From positions 2,054,980 through 2,118,979 of the forward strand of contig NZ_CP013244.1 of the NCBI RefSeq assembly GCF_001679665.1: a stretch of DNA of 64,000 bases. The letters are read 5' to 3'. This DNA is from Candidatus Viadribacter manganicus (GTDB lineage: Bacteria; Pseudomonadota; Alphaproteobacteria; Caulobacterales; Aquidulcibacteraceae). The notes under the pieces are model-generated. The model ran no database searches. It saw nothing but the letters and a program-made list of their open reading frames with translations, and was not told the DNA's origin. Shown piece after piece: positions 13,568 through 20,394 of this stretch. Positions within the stretch are counted from its first letter, which is position 1; each line of letters starts with the position of its first letter. The position numbers were made by a program, and so were the translations under genes.

Positions 13568-13607
13568 TTGTGCTCATTGTGCTAACGTGTTAAAATGCTA
13601 GCACAAT
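13568..13607 (+). promoter_or_regulatory. promoter plus operator for the histidine operon
   Basis: TTGTGC (13568-13573) and TAAAAT (13591-13596) are spaced by 17 bases, a good sigma-70 pair; the start would fall at about 13602-13604, leaving almost no leader before the ATG at 13606. Overlapping it is a perfect 9-bp inverted repeat, ATTGTGCTA (13576-13584) and TAGCACAAT (13599-13607), centred on the -10 box. A third half-site TTGTGCT (13568-13574) repeats the left arm. Binding there would block RNA polymerase, fitting autoregulation by the TrpR-like first gene. Confidence 0.65.
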
Positions 13608-13887
13608 GGCTAAGTATGATTTGATTGATGCGCTGCTGGCGCTGGAGGGCCGCAAAACGGCCGAGGCGTTCCTTACCGACTTGCTGACGCCCAGCGAGTT
13701 GCGGGCGCTGTCCGAGCGCTGGGCGGTGGCGCAATTGCTGGATCGCGGCGAGCTTTCGTATCGCGAAATCGCTGAGGAGGCGCCGTCGAGCACGGCGACG
13801 GTCGTCCGTGTCGCGCGGTTTTTGAAGGAGATGCCCCACAAGGGCTATCGGCGCGTGCTCGATCGTCTGCAGAGCGCGCGGCCATGA
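13606..13887 (+). CDS. YerC/YecD-type TrpR-like regulator, first gene of the his operon
   Basis: A 93-residue protein with the Trp-repressor fold: LTDLLTPSELRALSERWAVA followed by the helix-turn-helix YREIAEEAPSSTATVVRVAR. YerC-like proteins in Firmicutes have been proposed to be histidine repressors (HisR). Position at the head of the complete his operon, ATGA overlap with hisG, and an inverted repeat over its own promoter support the same role here. There is no Shine-Dalgarno and the predicted transcription start is within a few bases of the ATG, so translation is probably leaderless. Confidence 0.85.
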   Translation: MAKYDLIDALLALEGRKTAEAFLTDLLTPSELRALSERWAVAQLLDRGELSYREIAEEAPSSTATVVRVARFLKEMPHKGYRRVLDRLQSARP

Positions 13888-14750
13888 GCGAGCGTCTGCG
13901 CATCGCGGTGCAGAAGGGCGGCCGGCTGGGGACGAAGAGTCTTGAACTGGTGGAATCTGCCGGCTTTCGCATTCTGCGTGGCGCTAATGAATTGCTCTAT
14001 CGCATCGAGAATGCGCCGATCGATCTTCTTTGCGTGCGCGATGACGACATCCCGACGTTCGTTGACGATGGCGTTGCGGATTTCGGCATTGTTGGGCGCA
14101 ATGTACTGGAAGAACGCGGCGCGGGCGAACTTACCGAAGTGATGCCGCTCGGGTTTGGCCGCTGCACGCTGAAGATCGCGGCGCCGGCGGGGTGGCCCTA
14201 TCGCGGCGTGCAATCTCTGCAAGGCGCGCGCATCGCGACGACGTATCCGCGCACATTGGCGCGGTTCTTGGAACGCAACGGTGTCGAGGCCGAGATCGTG
14301 ACGATGCGCGGGGCTGTGGAAGTGGCGCCACGCTTGAAATTGGCGCAGGTGATCTGCGATCTCGTTTCGACGGGCGCAACATTGGAAGCGAATGGGCTGG
14401 TTGCTGTCGATACGGTGATGAATAGCGAAGCGGTGCTCATTCGCGGCGCGAGCAAAATCAATGCGGCGTTGGCGCATGTCGCTGCGAGTGTCGTGCAGCG
14501 TTTTCGCGGCGTGGCGGCGAGCCAGGGCTCGAAGTATGTGATGATGAACGCGCCGCGTTCGGCGCTGCCCGAGATTTCGCGGATCTTGCCGGGCGCCGGC
14601 GCGCCGACGGTGACGCCGCTTGCCGGCAATGACGACGCGGTCGCGGTGCATGCCGTGTGTCAGGAATCCGTGTTCTGGGAGACGCTCGAGAAGCTGCGGG
14701 GCGCGGGCGCATCGGCGATCTTGGTGTTGCCGATCGAGAAGATGATGTGA
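13884..14750 (+). CDS. hisG: ATP phosphoribosyltransferase HisG, long form
   Basis: 288 residues, the length of the long form that has its own C-terminal ACT-like regulatory domain and needs no HisZ. Recognisable parts are RIAVQKGGRLGTKSLELVES, DIPTFVDDGVADFGIVG, the PRPP-binding VICDLVSTGATLEANGL, and a C-terminal regulatory part from about residue 210. It catalyses the first committed step of histidine synthesis and is expected to be feedback-inhibited by histidine. The start overlaps the yerC-like gene by ATGA. Confidence 0.95.
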   Translation: MSERLRIAVQKGGRLGTKSLELVESAGFRILRGANELLYRIENAPIDLLCVRDDDIPTFVDDGVADFGIVGRNVLEERGAGELTEVMPLGFGRCTLKIAAPAGWPYRGVQSLQGARIATTYPRTLARFLERNGVEAEIVTMRGAVEVAPRLKLAQVICDLVSTGATLEANGLVAVDTVMNSEAVLIRGASKINAALAHVAASVVQRFRGVAASQGSKYVMMNAPRSALPEISRILPGAGAPTVTPLAGNDDAVAVHAVCQESVFWETLEKLRGAGASAILVLPIEKMM

Positions 14751-14757
14751 GCCGCAG

Positions 14758-16650
14758 GTGAAACGTCTGCGTTGGGACACGCTTTCTGTCGAGGAGAAAA
14801 AGCTGGCGCTGGCGCGGCCGGAGCAGCGCCGCGATGCACGTGTGCTCGCTGTGGTGCGCGGCATTTTCGAAGATGTGGAGCGCGAAGGCGCTGCCGCAGT
14901 TGATCGCTGGTCCGAGAAGATCGATGGGCGGCGCGTAGAGCGTTTGGAGCTGACGAGCGCCGCTGTGACTGCCGCGCGCGCGGCGCTTCAAGCAGAGGAC
15001 CTCGCTGCGATCGACGCGGTGATTGAGAATGTGCGCTTCTACCATGAGGCGACGGCGCCGAATCCGATCGCGGTCGAGACGGCGCCTGGTATTTTGTGCC
15101 GCCAGGTTTGGCGGCCGATCGAGACGTGCGGACTCTATGTTCCGGCTGGGAGCGCGCCGTTGGTGTCGACGCTGATCATGTTGGCGGCGCCGGCGGCGGT
15201 GGCCGGTGTGCCGAACCGTGTCTTGGTCAGTCCTGCGAGCAAATCGGGCGAGACACATCCAGCGATCATCGCCGCCGCCGCGGCCTGTGGAATCGAGGCT
15301 ATCTGGCGTGTCGGGGGCGCTCAGGCGATCGCGGCGCTGACGTTCGGCGCGATCTTGCCGAAGGCGGAAAAGATCTTCGGTCCGGGCAACGCCTATGCTG
15401 CGGAGGCCAAGAGGTTCGCAGCGGCGTTGCATGGTGGTCCGGCAGTGGATTTGCCGGCGGGGCCGAGTGAGTTGGCGGTGGTGGCGGATGCGAGCGCGGA
15501 TGCGGCGCTCATCGCGGCGGATTTGCTGAGCCAAGCCGAGCACGATGCCGACGCGCAAGTGCTGCTGATATCGCCGTCTGAAGAACTGCTGAGCGCGGTT
15601 GAGGCGGAGCTTGAGCGGCAGTTGGCAAGCTTACCGCGTGCGGACATTGCGCGCGCATCGTTGGACCAGGCGCGCTTCATAAGAGTTCGTGACGCCGGCG
15701 AAGCGATCGATGTGGCCAATGCGTATGCGCCGGAGCATTTGTCGCTTGTCGTTGCCGACGAGCGCGCCGTGTCACGTGTGCGCAATGCGGGCGCGGTGTT
15801 CGTGGGTCGCAATGGAGCGGAAAGCTATGGCGACTATGTCGCCGGCCCAAGTCATGTGTTGCCGACCGATGGCGCGGCGCGGAGCTGGGCTGGTGTCACC
15901 ACCGCATCGTTCATGAAGAGCTTCACGATCCAGGAGATCGACGCGACGGGCGTGCGGCATGTTACGAATATCGCTGCGCGATTGGCGCGCTTGGAGGGCC
16001 TGGAGGCGCACGCCCGCGCCGCCGAGGCGCGGATCGCTGTGGCGAAGGAAGCAGACGCTGCGGTCGTGGTACGTAGGCGCCGCGCCGAGGTGATGCGAGA
16101 GACGCGGGAAACGCAAGTTACGGTGACCGTGGATTTGGATCGGCGCTCCGCGCCGGTGATCGATACGGGTGTGCCGTTCTACGACCACATGCTTGAGCAA
16201 GTTGCGCAGCACAGTGGCATTGGGCTGAAGCTGCTGTGCAAGGGCGATCTTGAGATCGACGCGCACCACACGATTGAAGATTGCGCGCTGACATTGGGTC
16301 AGGCGCTGAAGCAGGCGTTAGGCGAGCGGCGCGGCATTGCGCGTTATGGCTTCGTGCTGCCGATGGATGAGGCCGAGGCAAAGGTCTCGATCGATCTTGG
16401 CGGGCGGCCCTATCTGGTTTTCGACGGCGCGTTCGCGCAGCCGAGCTTGGGCGCCTATCCGACGGAGATGACGGAGCATGTGTTCCGTTCGCTCGCCCAG
16501 AGCATGGGCGCGGCGATCCACGTGTCGGTGAGCGGCGAGAACGATCACCACATGACGGAGGCTTGTTTCAAAGCGTTTGGCCGCGCGTTGCGTCAGGCGA
16601 TCGCGATCGAGAGCGAGATATTGCCCTCGACCAAAGGCGTGATCGCATGA
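14758..16650 (+). CDS. hisDB: HisD-HisB fusion: histidinol dehydrogenase + imidazoleglycerol-phosphate dehydratase
   Basis: One uninterrupted 630-residue frame. Residues 1 to about 430 are a full HisD: the zinc ligands and catalytic residues are recognisable in LLSQAEHDADAQ, NAYAPEHLSL, GDYVAGPSHVLPT and GLEAHARAAEAR. After a basic linker of some 15 residues (AVVVRRRRAEV) residues 446-630 are a complete HisB dehydratase with DTGVPFYDHMLEQVAQHSG, DAHHTIEDCALTLGQAL and ENDHHMTEACFKAF. There is no phosphatase domain. Steps 7 and the last two of the pathway are thus in one chain. Start GTG. A GAGG two bases before codon 446 is too close to be a good internal ribosome site. Confidence 0.93.
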   Translation: MKRLRWDTLSVEEKKLALARPEQRRDARVLAVVRGIFEDVEREGAAAVDRWSEKIDGRRVERLELTSAAVTAARAALQAEDLAAIDAVIENVRFYHEATAPNPIAVETAPGILCRQVWRPIETCGLYVPAGSAPLVSTLIMLAAPAAVAGVPNRVLVSPASKSGETHPAIIAAAAACGIEAIWRVGGAQAIAALTFGAILPKAEKIFGPGNAYAAEAKRFAAALHGGPAVDLPAGPSELAVVADASADAALIAADLLSQAEHDADAQVLLISPSEELLSAVEAELERQLASLPRADIARASLDQARFIRVRDAGEAIDVANAYAPEHLSLVVADERAVSRVRNAGAVFVGRNGAESYGDYVAGPSHVLPTDGAARSWAGVTTASFMKSFTIQEIDATGVRHVTNIAARLARLEGLEAHARAAEARIAVAKEADAAVVVRRRRAEVMRETRETQVTVTVDLDRRSAPVIDTGVPFYDHMLEQVAQHSGIGLKLLCKGDLEIDAHHTIEDCALTLGQALKQALGERRGIARYGFVLPMDEAEAKVSIDLGGRPYLVFDGAFAQPSLGAYPTEMTEHVFRSLAQSMGAAIHVSVSGENDHHMTEACFKAFGRALRQAIAIESEILPSTKGVIA

Positions 16651-17243
16651 GTGTCGCTGTGGTGAAGATCGGCGTCGGCAACACCGCATCAGTGATGTTT
16701 GCGTTGGAGCGGCTGGGTGCGGCGGCGGTGTTGACCGATGATCCGGCGCGTGTGGCTGAGGCCGAGCGGGTCATTCTGCCCGGTGTTGGCGCGGCCGCGC
16801 ATGCGATGAAGCGGCTCAATGAAAGTGGTGTGGAGGATGTGTTGCGCAACTTTTCACGGCCGTTGCTTGGCATTTGTCTCGGCCAGCAATTGCTGTTCGA
16901 GACCAGTGATGAGGGCGACGCGGAGGGACTGGGGCGCATTCCGGGGCGCGTGACACGCTTTCCCGTCTCGCCCGAGGCGCCTGTGCCGCATATGGGCTGG
17001 TCGAAGATCGAGACGACGCGCGAGAGTGCGTTGCTCGAAGGATTGGTCGAGACGCCATACGCCTACTTTGTTCACTCCTTTATTTGCCCGGCTAGCGACG
17101 CGACCATTGCAACGGCGCGTTACGGCGCGCCGTTTCCGGCGATGGTCGCGTCGGGGAATGTGTTTGGTTGCCAGTTTCACCCGGAAAGGTCCGGCGCCGC
17201 TGGCGCAACAATTCTACGCAACTTCTTGAGTTTGCCATGCTGA
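16647..17243 (+). CDS. hisH: imidazole glycerol phosphate synthase, glutaminase subunit HisH
   Basis: 198 residues of class-I glutamine amidotransferase: the nucleophile is in RPLLGICLGQQLLFE (Cys) and the partner His and Glu in FGCQFHPERSG. VILPGVGAAAHAM and PVPHMGWSK are typical of HisH. It delivers ammonia to HisF. The start overlaps the hisDB stop (ATGA). Confidence 0.95.
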   Translation: MSVAVVKIGVGNTASVMFALERLGAAAVLTDDPARVAEAERVILPGVGAAAHAMKRLNESGVEDVLRNFSRPLLGICLGQQLLFETSDEGDAEGLGRIPGRVTRFPVSPEAPVPHMGWSKIETTRESALLEGLVETPYAYFVHSFICPASDATIATARYGAPFPAMVASGNVFGCQFHPERSGAAGATILRNFLSLPC

Positions 17244-17959
17244 TCTATCCGGCCATCGACATTCTGGGCGGCCGGTGCGTGCGCCTTGCGCTCGGCAAGT
17301 TCGATGACGTGACCACGTACGGCGATCCGGCGGTACAATGCACGGCGTTTGCGTTGCAGGGCGCGACCTGGGTGCATGTGGTCGATCTCGATGGCGCGCG
17401 CGAAGGCACGCCAATGCAGCACCACTTGCTGCGCCAACTCACGCAATGCTCGGATGCGAAGATCCAGTTCGGCGGCGGCGTGCGGCAGTTCGCGCACGTC
17501 CAGGCATTGTTCGATGCTGGCGTCAGCCGCGTGATCGTGGGCTCGGCGGCAGTGCAACGCCCCCAGGAAGTGCGTGAGTGGACGTCGTCGTTCGGGCTGG
17601 AGCGTCTCTGCTGCGCGCTCGATGTGCGGCCGGTAAACGGCGTTTACGAGGTGGTGGTGCGAGGTTGGACGGCGGGCGGCGGTGTCGATCTTAACACCGC
17701 GCTATCGCAATTTCCGGTGGGGACGCTGAAGCATGTTCTGGTCACCGATGTTTCACGTGATGGCGTGCTTGGCGGGCCGAATTTTGCGCTGATGCGTCAG
17801 CTTTGCGCGGAGCGGCCCGATCTGGAGATACAGGCTTCGGGCGGTGTCGCTTCGTTGGATGATCTGCGCGCGCTGCGCGAGACCGGCGTCTCAGGGGCGA
17901 TCGTCGGCCGTGCACTTTATGAGAAGCGCGTGGCCTTGGAGGAAGCCTTTGCCCTCTAA
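17237..17959 (+). CDS. hisA: phosphoribosylformimino-AICAR-P isomerase HisA
   Basis: A 240-residue TIM barrel with MLIYPAIDILGGRCVRLALG, QFGGGVRQFAHV, VTDVSRDGVLGGPN and IQASGGVASLDDLRAL, which contain the two catalytic Asp (near residues 8 and 169) and both phosphate-binding loops. It catalyses the fourth step of the pathway. The start overlaps hisH by 7 bases; the ATG gives the canonical N-terminus. Confidence 0.95.
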   Translation: MLIYPAIDILGGRCVRLALGKFDDVTTYGDPAVQCTAFALQGATWVHVVDLDGAREGTPMQHHLLRQLTQCSDAKIQFGGGVRQFAHVQALFDAGVSRVIVGSAAVQRPQEVREWTSSFGLERLCCALDVRPVNGVYEVVVRGWTAGGGVDLNTALSQFPVGTLKHVLVTDVSRDGVLGGPNFALMRQLCAERPDLEIQASGGVASLDDLRALRETGVSGAIVGRALYEKRVALEEAFAL

Positions 17960-18716
17960 GCGCATCATCGCGTGCCTGGATGTAAAAGGCGGCCGCGTCG
18001 TGAAAGGCGTGCAGTTCGAAGGCCACGTCGATGCAGGCGACCCGCTGGACCTTGCGCTACGCTACCGCGATGAAGGCGCCGATGAGATCGTGATCTACGA
18101 TATCGCGGCGTCGGCTGAGCGGCGCACGATTGATTATGATTGGTTGGCGCGCGTGGCGCGGCGCCTGGATGTGCCGCTCTGTGTTGCGGGCGGTATTCGC
18201 ACGAGCGAGCAGGCGATCGGCTGCCTTGAGCACGGAGCGGATAAGGTCTCGATCAATTCACCGGCGCTTGAGCGACCCGAGTTTATCAATGAGCTTGCCG
18301 ATGTGGCGGGATCGCAATGTGTCGTTGTGGGCGTCGATAGCCGCGCGACCGAAGGCGTGTGGAGCACGTTTCAGTACACGGGCGATGCGGCGACGATCCG
18401 GCGCACGCCGCGTAAGACGATGGAGTGGATCGTTGAGGCGCAGGCGCGCGGCGCAGGCGAGATCGTGCTGAACTGCATGGACCGGGACGGCACACGCGAT
18501 GGCTTTGACATCGAGCAACTCGCGGTGGCGCGGCGATTGCTGACCATTCCATTGGTGGCGTCGGGCGGCGCCGGCGCTGCCCAGCACTTTGCGGACGTGT
18601 TTGCTGGCGCCGACGTGTCGGGCGCTCTGGCGGCGAGCATCTTTCACTTTCGGCGCGTTGGCGTCGGAGAGGTTAAGTCGGCGGTCGCTGCGGCTGGCTA
18701 TGAGGTGCGGCCGTGA
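17949..18716 (+). CDS. hisF: imidazole glycerol phosphate synthase, cyclase subunit HisF (TTG start)
   Basis: A 255-residue TIM barrel beginning [20 protein letters not shown], with [32 protein letters not shown] (catalytic Asp) and [14 protein letters not shown]. The start is a TTG at 17949: it gives the family N-terminus and has GGAGG six bases upstream, whereas no ATG or GTG is in a suitable place. It overlaps hisA by 11 bases. It forms the HisF-HisH synthase. Confidence 0.93.
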
Positions 18717-19324
18717 CTTTGGATGTCGACGCGATCGATTTTGCGAAGAGTGGCGGGTTGGTTCCAGCGATCGTGCAGGATGCGCGGACGCTACAGGTCC
18801 TAATGCTGGGCTACATGGATCGTGCCGCGTTGGTAGAGACCATTGAGAGCGGCGAAGCGACGTTCTTTTCGCGCTCGCGCGGTGGACGTTGGCGCAAGGG
18901 AGAAACTTCGGGAAATCACATGTGCGTGCTCGACGTGAGTACAGATTGCGACCGCGACACTTTGCTTGTGTTGGTCGAGCCGCAGGGACCAGCGTGTCAT
19001 CTCGGAACGCAGAGTTGCTTTGGCGCCGGTGCGCGCGCCGATGTGTTGGCGGATCTAGAGCATATTATCGATGCGCGTGCGAAGGATGGGGGTGAAGCAA
19101 GCTACACGGCGCGCTTGTTCGCAAGCGGTGTAAAGCGCATCGCGCAGAAGGTTGGCGAAGAGGGCGTAGAATGCGCTTTAGCCGGCGCATCGGGCGCTGA
19201 CGATGAGTTGTGCGGCGAGGCCGCGGATTTGCTCTATCACTTGGCGGTGTTGTTGCGCGCACGCGGGCTGTCCTTGCCGGATGTGTATGAAGTGCTGTCG
19301 CAGCGCGCGGGCGCCCGGCCATGA
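18713..19324 (+). CDS. hisIE: bifunctional phosphoribosyl-AMP cyclohydrolase / phosphoribosyl-ATP pyrophosphatase HisIE
   Basis: 203 residues: a HisI domain in the first ~115 ([56 protein letters not shown]) and a HisE domain after that ([44 protein letters not shown]). The two are usually separate genes in alphaproteobacteria and fused in gammaproteobacteria and Bacteroidetes. The GTG start overlaps the hisF stop. Confidence 0.94.
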
Positions 19325-20394
19325 GCGACCCTGTACCGAAGCGCTCGATTCTTGAGATAAAGCCGTACGTTCCTGGCAAAGCTGCCGCGGCCGGTTTCGT
19401 AGCGCCGATCAAGCTGTCGGCGAATGAGAACGTCTTGGGTTGCAGCCCAGCGGCGCGTGCTGCGTTTTTGGCAACGGCTGATGGATTGCATTTTTATCCG
19501 GACTCGAAAGCCTTTGCGTTGAGAGAGGCGTTGGCTGCCAAGCACGATCTCGAGCCGGCGCGGATTGTGCTGGGCGCGGGATCGGATGAGATCTTTTCTC
19601 TCGTTTGCCAGGCGTATCTCTCGCCCGGCGATACGATGGTGCAGCCGCAATTTGCGTTTGCGGCATGGGCGATCGCTGCGCGCGCGGCGGGCGCGGATGT
19701 GATCTCGGTGCCAGAGCGCGATTACCATGTCGATGTGGACGCAACAATTGAGGCGGTCGATGCGCGAACGCGTGTCGTGTTCGTCGCCAATCCGGCAAAC
19801 CCGACCGGGACGGTTGTTCCGTTCTCGGAGATCCGGCGCTTGCACGCGGCGTTACCGGATCACGTCGTTTTGGTGTTGGATGCTGCGTATGCGGAGTTCG
19901 CTGAGGGCGAGGGCGATTATGAAGATGGCTTGCGCCTAGCGCGGTCGTCGCCGAACGTTGTGCTGACGCGAACTTTTTCGAAGTTACATGGCCTGGCGTC
20001 ATTGCGCGTGGGTTGGGGGTATGCGTCTGCGGAGATCGTGGATGTGTTGAACCGCATCCGGCTGCCGTTCAACACCTCGACCATGGGGCAGGCCGCTGCG
20101 ATCGCGGCGTTGAACGACGATGGGTTTGCCGCCCGTTCGTTAGCGTTGGTACGCGAAGGCCGGCCGGTACTGGAGCGGTTGCTGCGCGACGCGGGCTTGG
20201 TGACGTTGCCGTCGGCGGCAAACTTCGTGACCGCGCTGGCGCCGAATGCCGATGCCGCTTCGGCTCTGGATCGTAAGTTGGCGGCGCGCGGCATACTCGT
20301 GCGCACGCTCGCCAATTACGACATGCCCGCCGCCATTCGCGTGACGATCGGTGATGACGCGCAGATGCGGGCGCTTGAAGAGGCTCTCGCCTAG
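19321..20394 (+). CDS. hisC: histidinol-phosphate aminotransferase HisC
   Basis: A 357-residue fold-type I PLP enzyme: [19 protein letters not shown] at the N-terminus, [35 protein letters not shown], and the PLP lysine in [20 protein letters not shown]. It is the last gene of the operon, with ATGA overlap, and its stop overlaps that of ilvE on the other strand by four bases. Confidence 0.94.

Follow-up and report, generated by a model that had tools for sequence, protein, structure and literature searches.

A predicted HisR repressor, its putative tandem operator and a probable leaderless start at the his operon of Candidatus Viadribacter manganicus

HisR (YerC/YecD) has been predicted in Firmicutes, in some Actinobacteria, in Synergistetes and in 62 Proteobacteria (PMC9413887). 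The HisR of Ruminococcus gnavus binds its own operator and this binding is stimulated by histidine, while attenuators and T-boxes are also described in Firmicutes in place of HisR (PMC9413887). An earlier note on the DNA analysed here knew of no histidine-linked regulator of the TrpR family established in alphaproteobacteria. HisR is, however, not new to this class: in 2022 it was predicted in 11 alphaproteobacterial genomes (Rhodobacterales and Caulobacterales), at the head of the his operon and accompanied by a TrpR-like 20-bp motif (PMC9413887). We found in the literature no experiments on any alphaproteobacterial HisR.

The window, i.e. the whole stretch of 64,000 nucleotides that was analysed, belongs to the single-contig genome (3.73 Mb) of Candidatus Viadribacter manganicus; all the features described below are on its forward strand. 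Judged by its sequence, the 93-aa product of the frame 13606–13887 is HisR (YerC), a TrpR-family repressor, and hisR opens the his operon, as the earlier note had proposed. The protein scores 74.4 bits with the Pfam Trp_repressor family (PF01371) and passes the NCBI YerC/YecD model TIGR02531 (54.7 bits, cut-off 42.2), while it stays below the cut-off of the TrpR equivalog model TIGR01321 (35.5 bits, cut-off 67.25). The nearest solved structures, 3KOR, 3G1C and 3FRW, are all YerC-like (8.5e-18, 3.5e-17 and 2.3e-16 respectively), with the TrpR chain far behind (1.6e-5). At the pocket positions 85 and 88, where wild-type TrpR has G85 and S88, the alignment places V and F in the window HisR. The HisR structure examined in PMC9413887 is 3G1C, and the DNA-contact residues described there as retained in HisR (Ala80, Thr81 and Arg84) are all present in the window protein (STATVVR, aligned with GIATITR of TrpR).

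The hisR stop codon overlaps the hisG ATG at 13884 (ATGA overlap) and a complete his operon follows, in the order hisR-G-DB-H-A-F-IE-C. hisG (13884–14750; PF01634 and PF08029) is of the long form with a HisG_C domain. Next come a hisD-hisB fusion of histidinol dehydrogenase and IGP dehydratase in a 630-aa frame (14758–16650; PF00815 and PF00475), hisH (16653–17243; PF00117), hisA (17237–17959; PF00977), hisF (17955–18716; PF00977), a hisIE fusion (18713–19324; PF01502 and PF01503) and an aminotransferase (19321–20394; PF00155) presumed, also from its position, to be hisC. The starts of hisH and hisF are uncertain. The one-frame hisD-hisB fusion was also seen in two close relatives (L023 and L025).

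At the start of hisR, ATTGTGCTA (13576–13584) and TAGCACAAT (13599–13607) are perfect 9-bp inverted repeats of each other, 14 nt apart, and TAGCACAAT ends with the first two bases (A and T) of the ATG. The earlier note had seen this repeat over the promoter, and had proposed footprinting it in relatives. The arms are as it described them, but nine pairs out of nine occur in the window only, for 2–7 of 9 in relatives, and the exact N14 repeat was therefore rejected as the conserved operator. Its arms (13576–13607) correspond to the outer half-sites of two overlapping 20-bp palindromes, each with an N4 centre, that lie 8 bp apart. Predicted register A, TGTGCTAA-CGTG-TTAAAATG (13578–13597), occupies the promoter spacer and the -10, and is the most conserved dyad in relatives. 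Predicted register B, CGTGTTAA-AATG-CTAGCACA (13586–13605), covers the -10 and the start region, matches the consensus YGTGNTARNNNNYTANCACR and has its last base directly before the hisR ATG. Within the window B is more perfectly palindromic than A, of which the right half (TTAAAATG) is a poor fit to a half-site. The third half-site listed in the earlier note, TGTGCTCA, is present at 13569–13576, but it falls on the CTTG of the -35, the sole part that relatives keep there. It was set aside as an operator element, and is probably the -35.

HisR homologues were gathered from 19 of the 60 genomes of the family, from 80 named contigs and from 191 of the 398 genomes of the order, and 83 upstream regions were left after removal of duplicates. 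In the 25 of these loci that do not belong to Brevundimonas and kin, the conserved block consists of CTTGc followed by gTGTtTTAaCGTgnTAgCACGCTAncAC; in the 58 Brevundimonas-type loci it is CTTGACCGTTCCACTGTTACAGCATAGTGGAACG. In both sets the operator is nearly always between the -35 CTTG and the ATG. A motif search with coding sequence included converged on N-terminal codons and was discarded. In 22 well-aligned non-Brevundimonas loci, dyad symmetry is centred at 0, +4 and +8 bp (means of 5.3, 4.4 and 4.4 of 8 pairs respectively), for 0.9–3.2 of 8 pairs at the other offsets and 2.1 (sd 0.26) in shuffles. Three centres spaced by 4 bp are what two 20-bp palindromes shifted by 8 bp would produce, and we predict that the conserved operator is such a tandem of N4 palindromes.

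Alternatively, a single dimer could bind register A only, the symmetry downstream of it in the window being incidental. Register A does show the strongest conservation (on average 5.3 complementary pairs out of 8 in relatives, for 4.4 in register B), and in several relatives B falls to 2–3 of 8. But the dyad centres at +4 and +8 are far above every other offset, and the palindrome that is weaker in the window is precisely A. In Brevundimonas, moreover, the operator is again a dyad of 28 bp, in which GTTnCAn is repeated directly at a distance of 8 bp. We thus regard the single-dimer arrangement as unlikely and keep the tandem as the predicted operator; because of the low pairing of register B in some relatives, the second dimer may nevertheless not bind at every locus.

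The operator of Brevundimonas and kin (L035–L092 and L126) differs in sequence from that of the window (CGTTCCACTGTTACAGCATAGTGGAACG, a 28-bp dyad). Residues 79–80 of the recognition helix are PT in the Brevundimonas-type HisR (ASPTTVVR) versus TA or TT elsewhere (ASTATVVR or ASTTTV). This is suggestive of a co-variation of these residues with the operator sequence, between two clades that do not make up an independent series. In Asticcacaulis (L093 and L094), half-site-like units recur every 8 bp past the two registers (TGTATTAG CACGCTAA CACACTAC CACAGTGA TACAG), which makes a third dimer site possible there.

The promoter is composed of a -35 element TTGTGC (13568–13573) and a -10 element TAAAAT (13591–13596) separated by 17 nt, exactly where the earlier note had placed them. 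The aligned CTTG is kept in nearly all relatives, and TAAAAC or TAGCAC is found at the position of the -10. The hisR ATG, at 13606, has no Shine-Dalgarno. Taken with the position of the -10 and the operator–ATG distance, this points to a transcription start in the region 13601–13606 and a leader of 0–5 nt. In 74 of the 83 loci the ATG is 0–5 nt past the conserved operator block (0–3 nt from the operator end in nearly all loci of the window's genus), and none of these 74 has a Shine-Dalgarno of at least 4 bases, versus 3 of the 9 loci with a longer distance. L015 and L016, from another genus of the same family, combine a long distance with a 5-base Shine-Dalgarno. The short distance without Shine-Dalgarno supports a leaderless hisR start, which promoter geometry makes probable; of the leaderless start claimed in the earlier note, the missing Shine-Dalgarno and the close ATG are confirmed, and the start site itself is deduced from the -10. 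Caulobacter crescentus has 375 leaderless mRNAs, which account for 9.6% of its CDSs and are translated no less efficiently than the others (PMC4117421), so that such a start would be ordinary in Caulobacterales. In L011 (G053) the hisR ATG directly follows the aligned block, which may be misaligned there.

A promoter match is by itself weak evidence, and the transcript could carry a leader from a promoter further upstream, the one near the ATG being an artefact of consensus matching. However, the -35 CTTG, the -10, their spacing and the ATG distance are all kept while the upstream sequence diverges, and a Shine-Dalgarno is absent from every short-distance locus but present in some of the long-distance ones. 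This makes an upstream promoter in place of the proximal one quite improbable. We retain the proximal, probably leaderless promoter, to which an additional promoter further upstream may be added.

Across the order, HisR is inherited together with the long HisG. Of the 398 Caulobacterales genomes, 191 contain HisR, 211 contain long HisG (E of 1e-60 or below) and 190 contain both (Fisher p ~5e-88, a value that ignores the tree and is inflated by shared ancestry). No His leader was recognised in 13 long-HisG genomes of another family that lack HisR (one of them, L187, is without upstream sequence). Control by HisR or a leader is thus not universal.

Of 30 genomes in the genus of the window, 17 have HisR and its operator and 8 have an orthologous long HisG without HisR; the remaining five comprise one with a distant short-type HisG (G033) and four without detectable HisG. 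The latter (G041, G057, G058 and G059) are 92–99% complete, and may be histidine auxotrophs or have a very divergent enzyme. All 8 congeners without HisR (L129–L136) lack the HisR operator and have, about 90–230 nt upstream of hisG, a His-rich leader frame that ends in a histidine-rich stretch (e.g. HHHHGHAAHHAPRH, 6–9 His), with its stop 88–119 nt before hisG. Further upstream of the frame, each of the 8 has a TTGAC box. Directly past the leader stop, again in all 8, segments 1 and 2 can pair at -8 to -15 kcal/mol and segments 2 and 3 at -15 to -24 kcal/mol. The stems were compared sequence by sequence, since the leader alignment had too many gaps to give a convincing score for covariation. 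A leader peptide followed by mutually exclusive stems is the anatomy of a ribosome-mediated attenuator, for which these leaders are candidates; they might act by termination or by occluding the start of hisG. They are unmatched by Rfam, RF00514 included, even at E 0.5, and a search of the window and these leaders with Rfam returned tRNAs only. Our open-access literature search found no description of an alphaproteobacterial his attenuator, which is not proof of absence.

Conversely, none of the 83 HisR loci, including those of the 17 HisR congeners, has a His-rich leader. The HisR-type rows form one group in the HisG tree (support 69/100, modest) that adjoins the leader-type rows. In the genomes examined of this genus the his operon is headed either by HisR, autoregulated and leaderless as predicted (17 species), or by a His-rich leader (8), never by both, and one has probably replaced the other recently.

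The specificity of the operator was also assessed. A 28-bp matrix was built from 21 relatives, excluding the genome of the window, and scanned over the 64 kb: it gives 30.1 bits at the operator and 4.4 at the best non-overlapping site. The whole genome was searched with the consensus pattern. The sole match of the 20-bp YGTGNTARNNNNYTANCACR without mismatch is at 13586–13605; every other match listed has 2 mismatches, and the total is 57 versus 128 for the reversed control. The exact pair of arms, with a gap of 10–18 nt, also occurs once in the 3.73 Mb. With a single perfect match, HisR seems to target its own operon alone, in a local, autoregulatory control, in line with the operator over its own promoter and the autoregulation put forward in the earlier note.

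Sequence and comparison give the family, the operon position, the conserved operator, its overlap with the promoter, the single genome site and the fixed operator–ATG distance. They suggest an autorepression model in which we have high confidence, and in which we infer the corepressor, the two dimers, the repression and the transcription start. When histidine is plentiful, histidine-loaded HisR dimers would occupy the two overlapping 20-bp sites (13578–13605), covering the spacer, the -10 and the start region, and would block RNA polymerase; repressor and all his enzymes would be shut off together. When histidine falls, HisR would leave and transcription would start 0–5 nt before the ATG. The repressor would then be translated from an essentially leaderless mRNA, and hisG would be coupled to it through the ATGA overlap.

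HisR might act on this operator with another effector, e.g. another metabolite of the pathway or tryptophan, since PMC9413887 left the histidine pocket of HisR unresolved. Yet the only operator of the genome is on the his operon, the congeners that lack HisR carry a leader with histidine codons at this very gene, histidine performed best as effector with the R. gnavus HisR (PMC9413887), and the G85 and S88 of the TrpR pocket are replaced by V and F. An effector other than histidine is very doubtful, and histidine is kept as the probable corepressor. Lastly, that the inverted repeat is a functionless product of chance is hardly credible: perfect 9-bp inverted repeats with loops of 0–20 nt are common in the window (35, of which 4 with N14), so that the repeat by itself is unremarkable, but the operator is kept in relatives and reaches its 30.1 bits with a matrix made from relatives alone.

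The presence of HisR in about half of the 398 Caulobacterales genomes turns a sparse prediction (11 genomes) into a broadly footprinted regulon, now with a defined operator, a promoter that is probably leaderless in design and, in Brevundimonas, a suggested protein–operator co-variation. The putative swap of repressor and attenuator within one genus offers a close natural pair in which to ask how an operon passes from one type of regulation to another.

The his leader of gammaproteobacteria (RF00514) resembles the 8 congeners in its anatomy, a His-rich leader and alternative stems before hisG, and would do the same job as HisR by another mechanism; RF00514 itself is absent from the window and does not match the leaders of the congeners. 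With TrpR of Escherichia coli, the window HisR shares the fold family and A80, T81 and R84 of the helix-turn-helix. TrpR binds tandem overlapping dimer sites 8 bp apart, which the two predicted registers of the window operator would resemble. Unlike TrpR, the window HisR is below the TrpR cut-off, has both residues 85 and 88 of the Trp pocket replaced, and is associated with his, not with trp or aroH. The closest likeness is to the published HisR (YerC/YecD): a TIGR02531/PF01371 protein whose gene heads the his operon in Proteobacteria, with a 20-bp palindromic TrpR-like operator and predicted autoregulation. The window differs from it by its operator, [TC]GTGnTAg in a putative tandem with an 8-bp offset, and by a start codon that abuts this operator and is predicted to be leaderless. 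To the known HisR family the present comparison would thus add a tandem operator, an operator-to-ATG geometry and a replacement within a genus.
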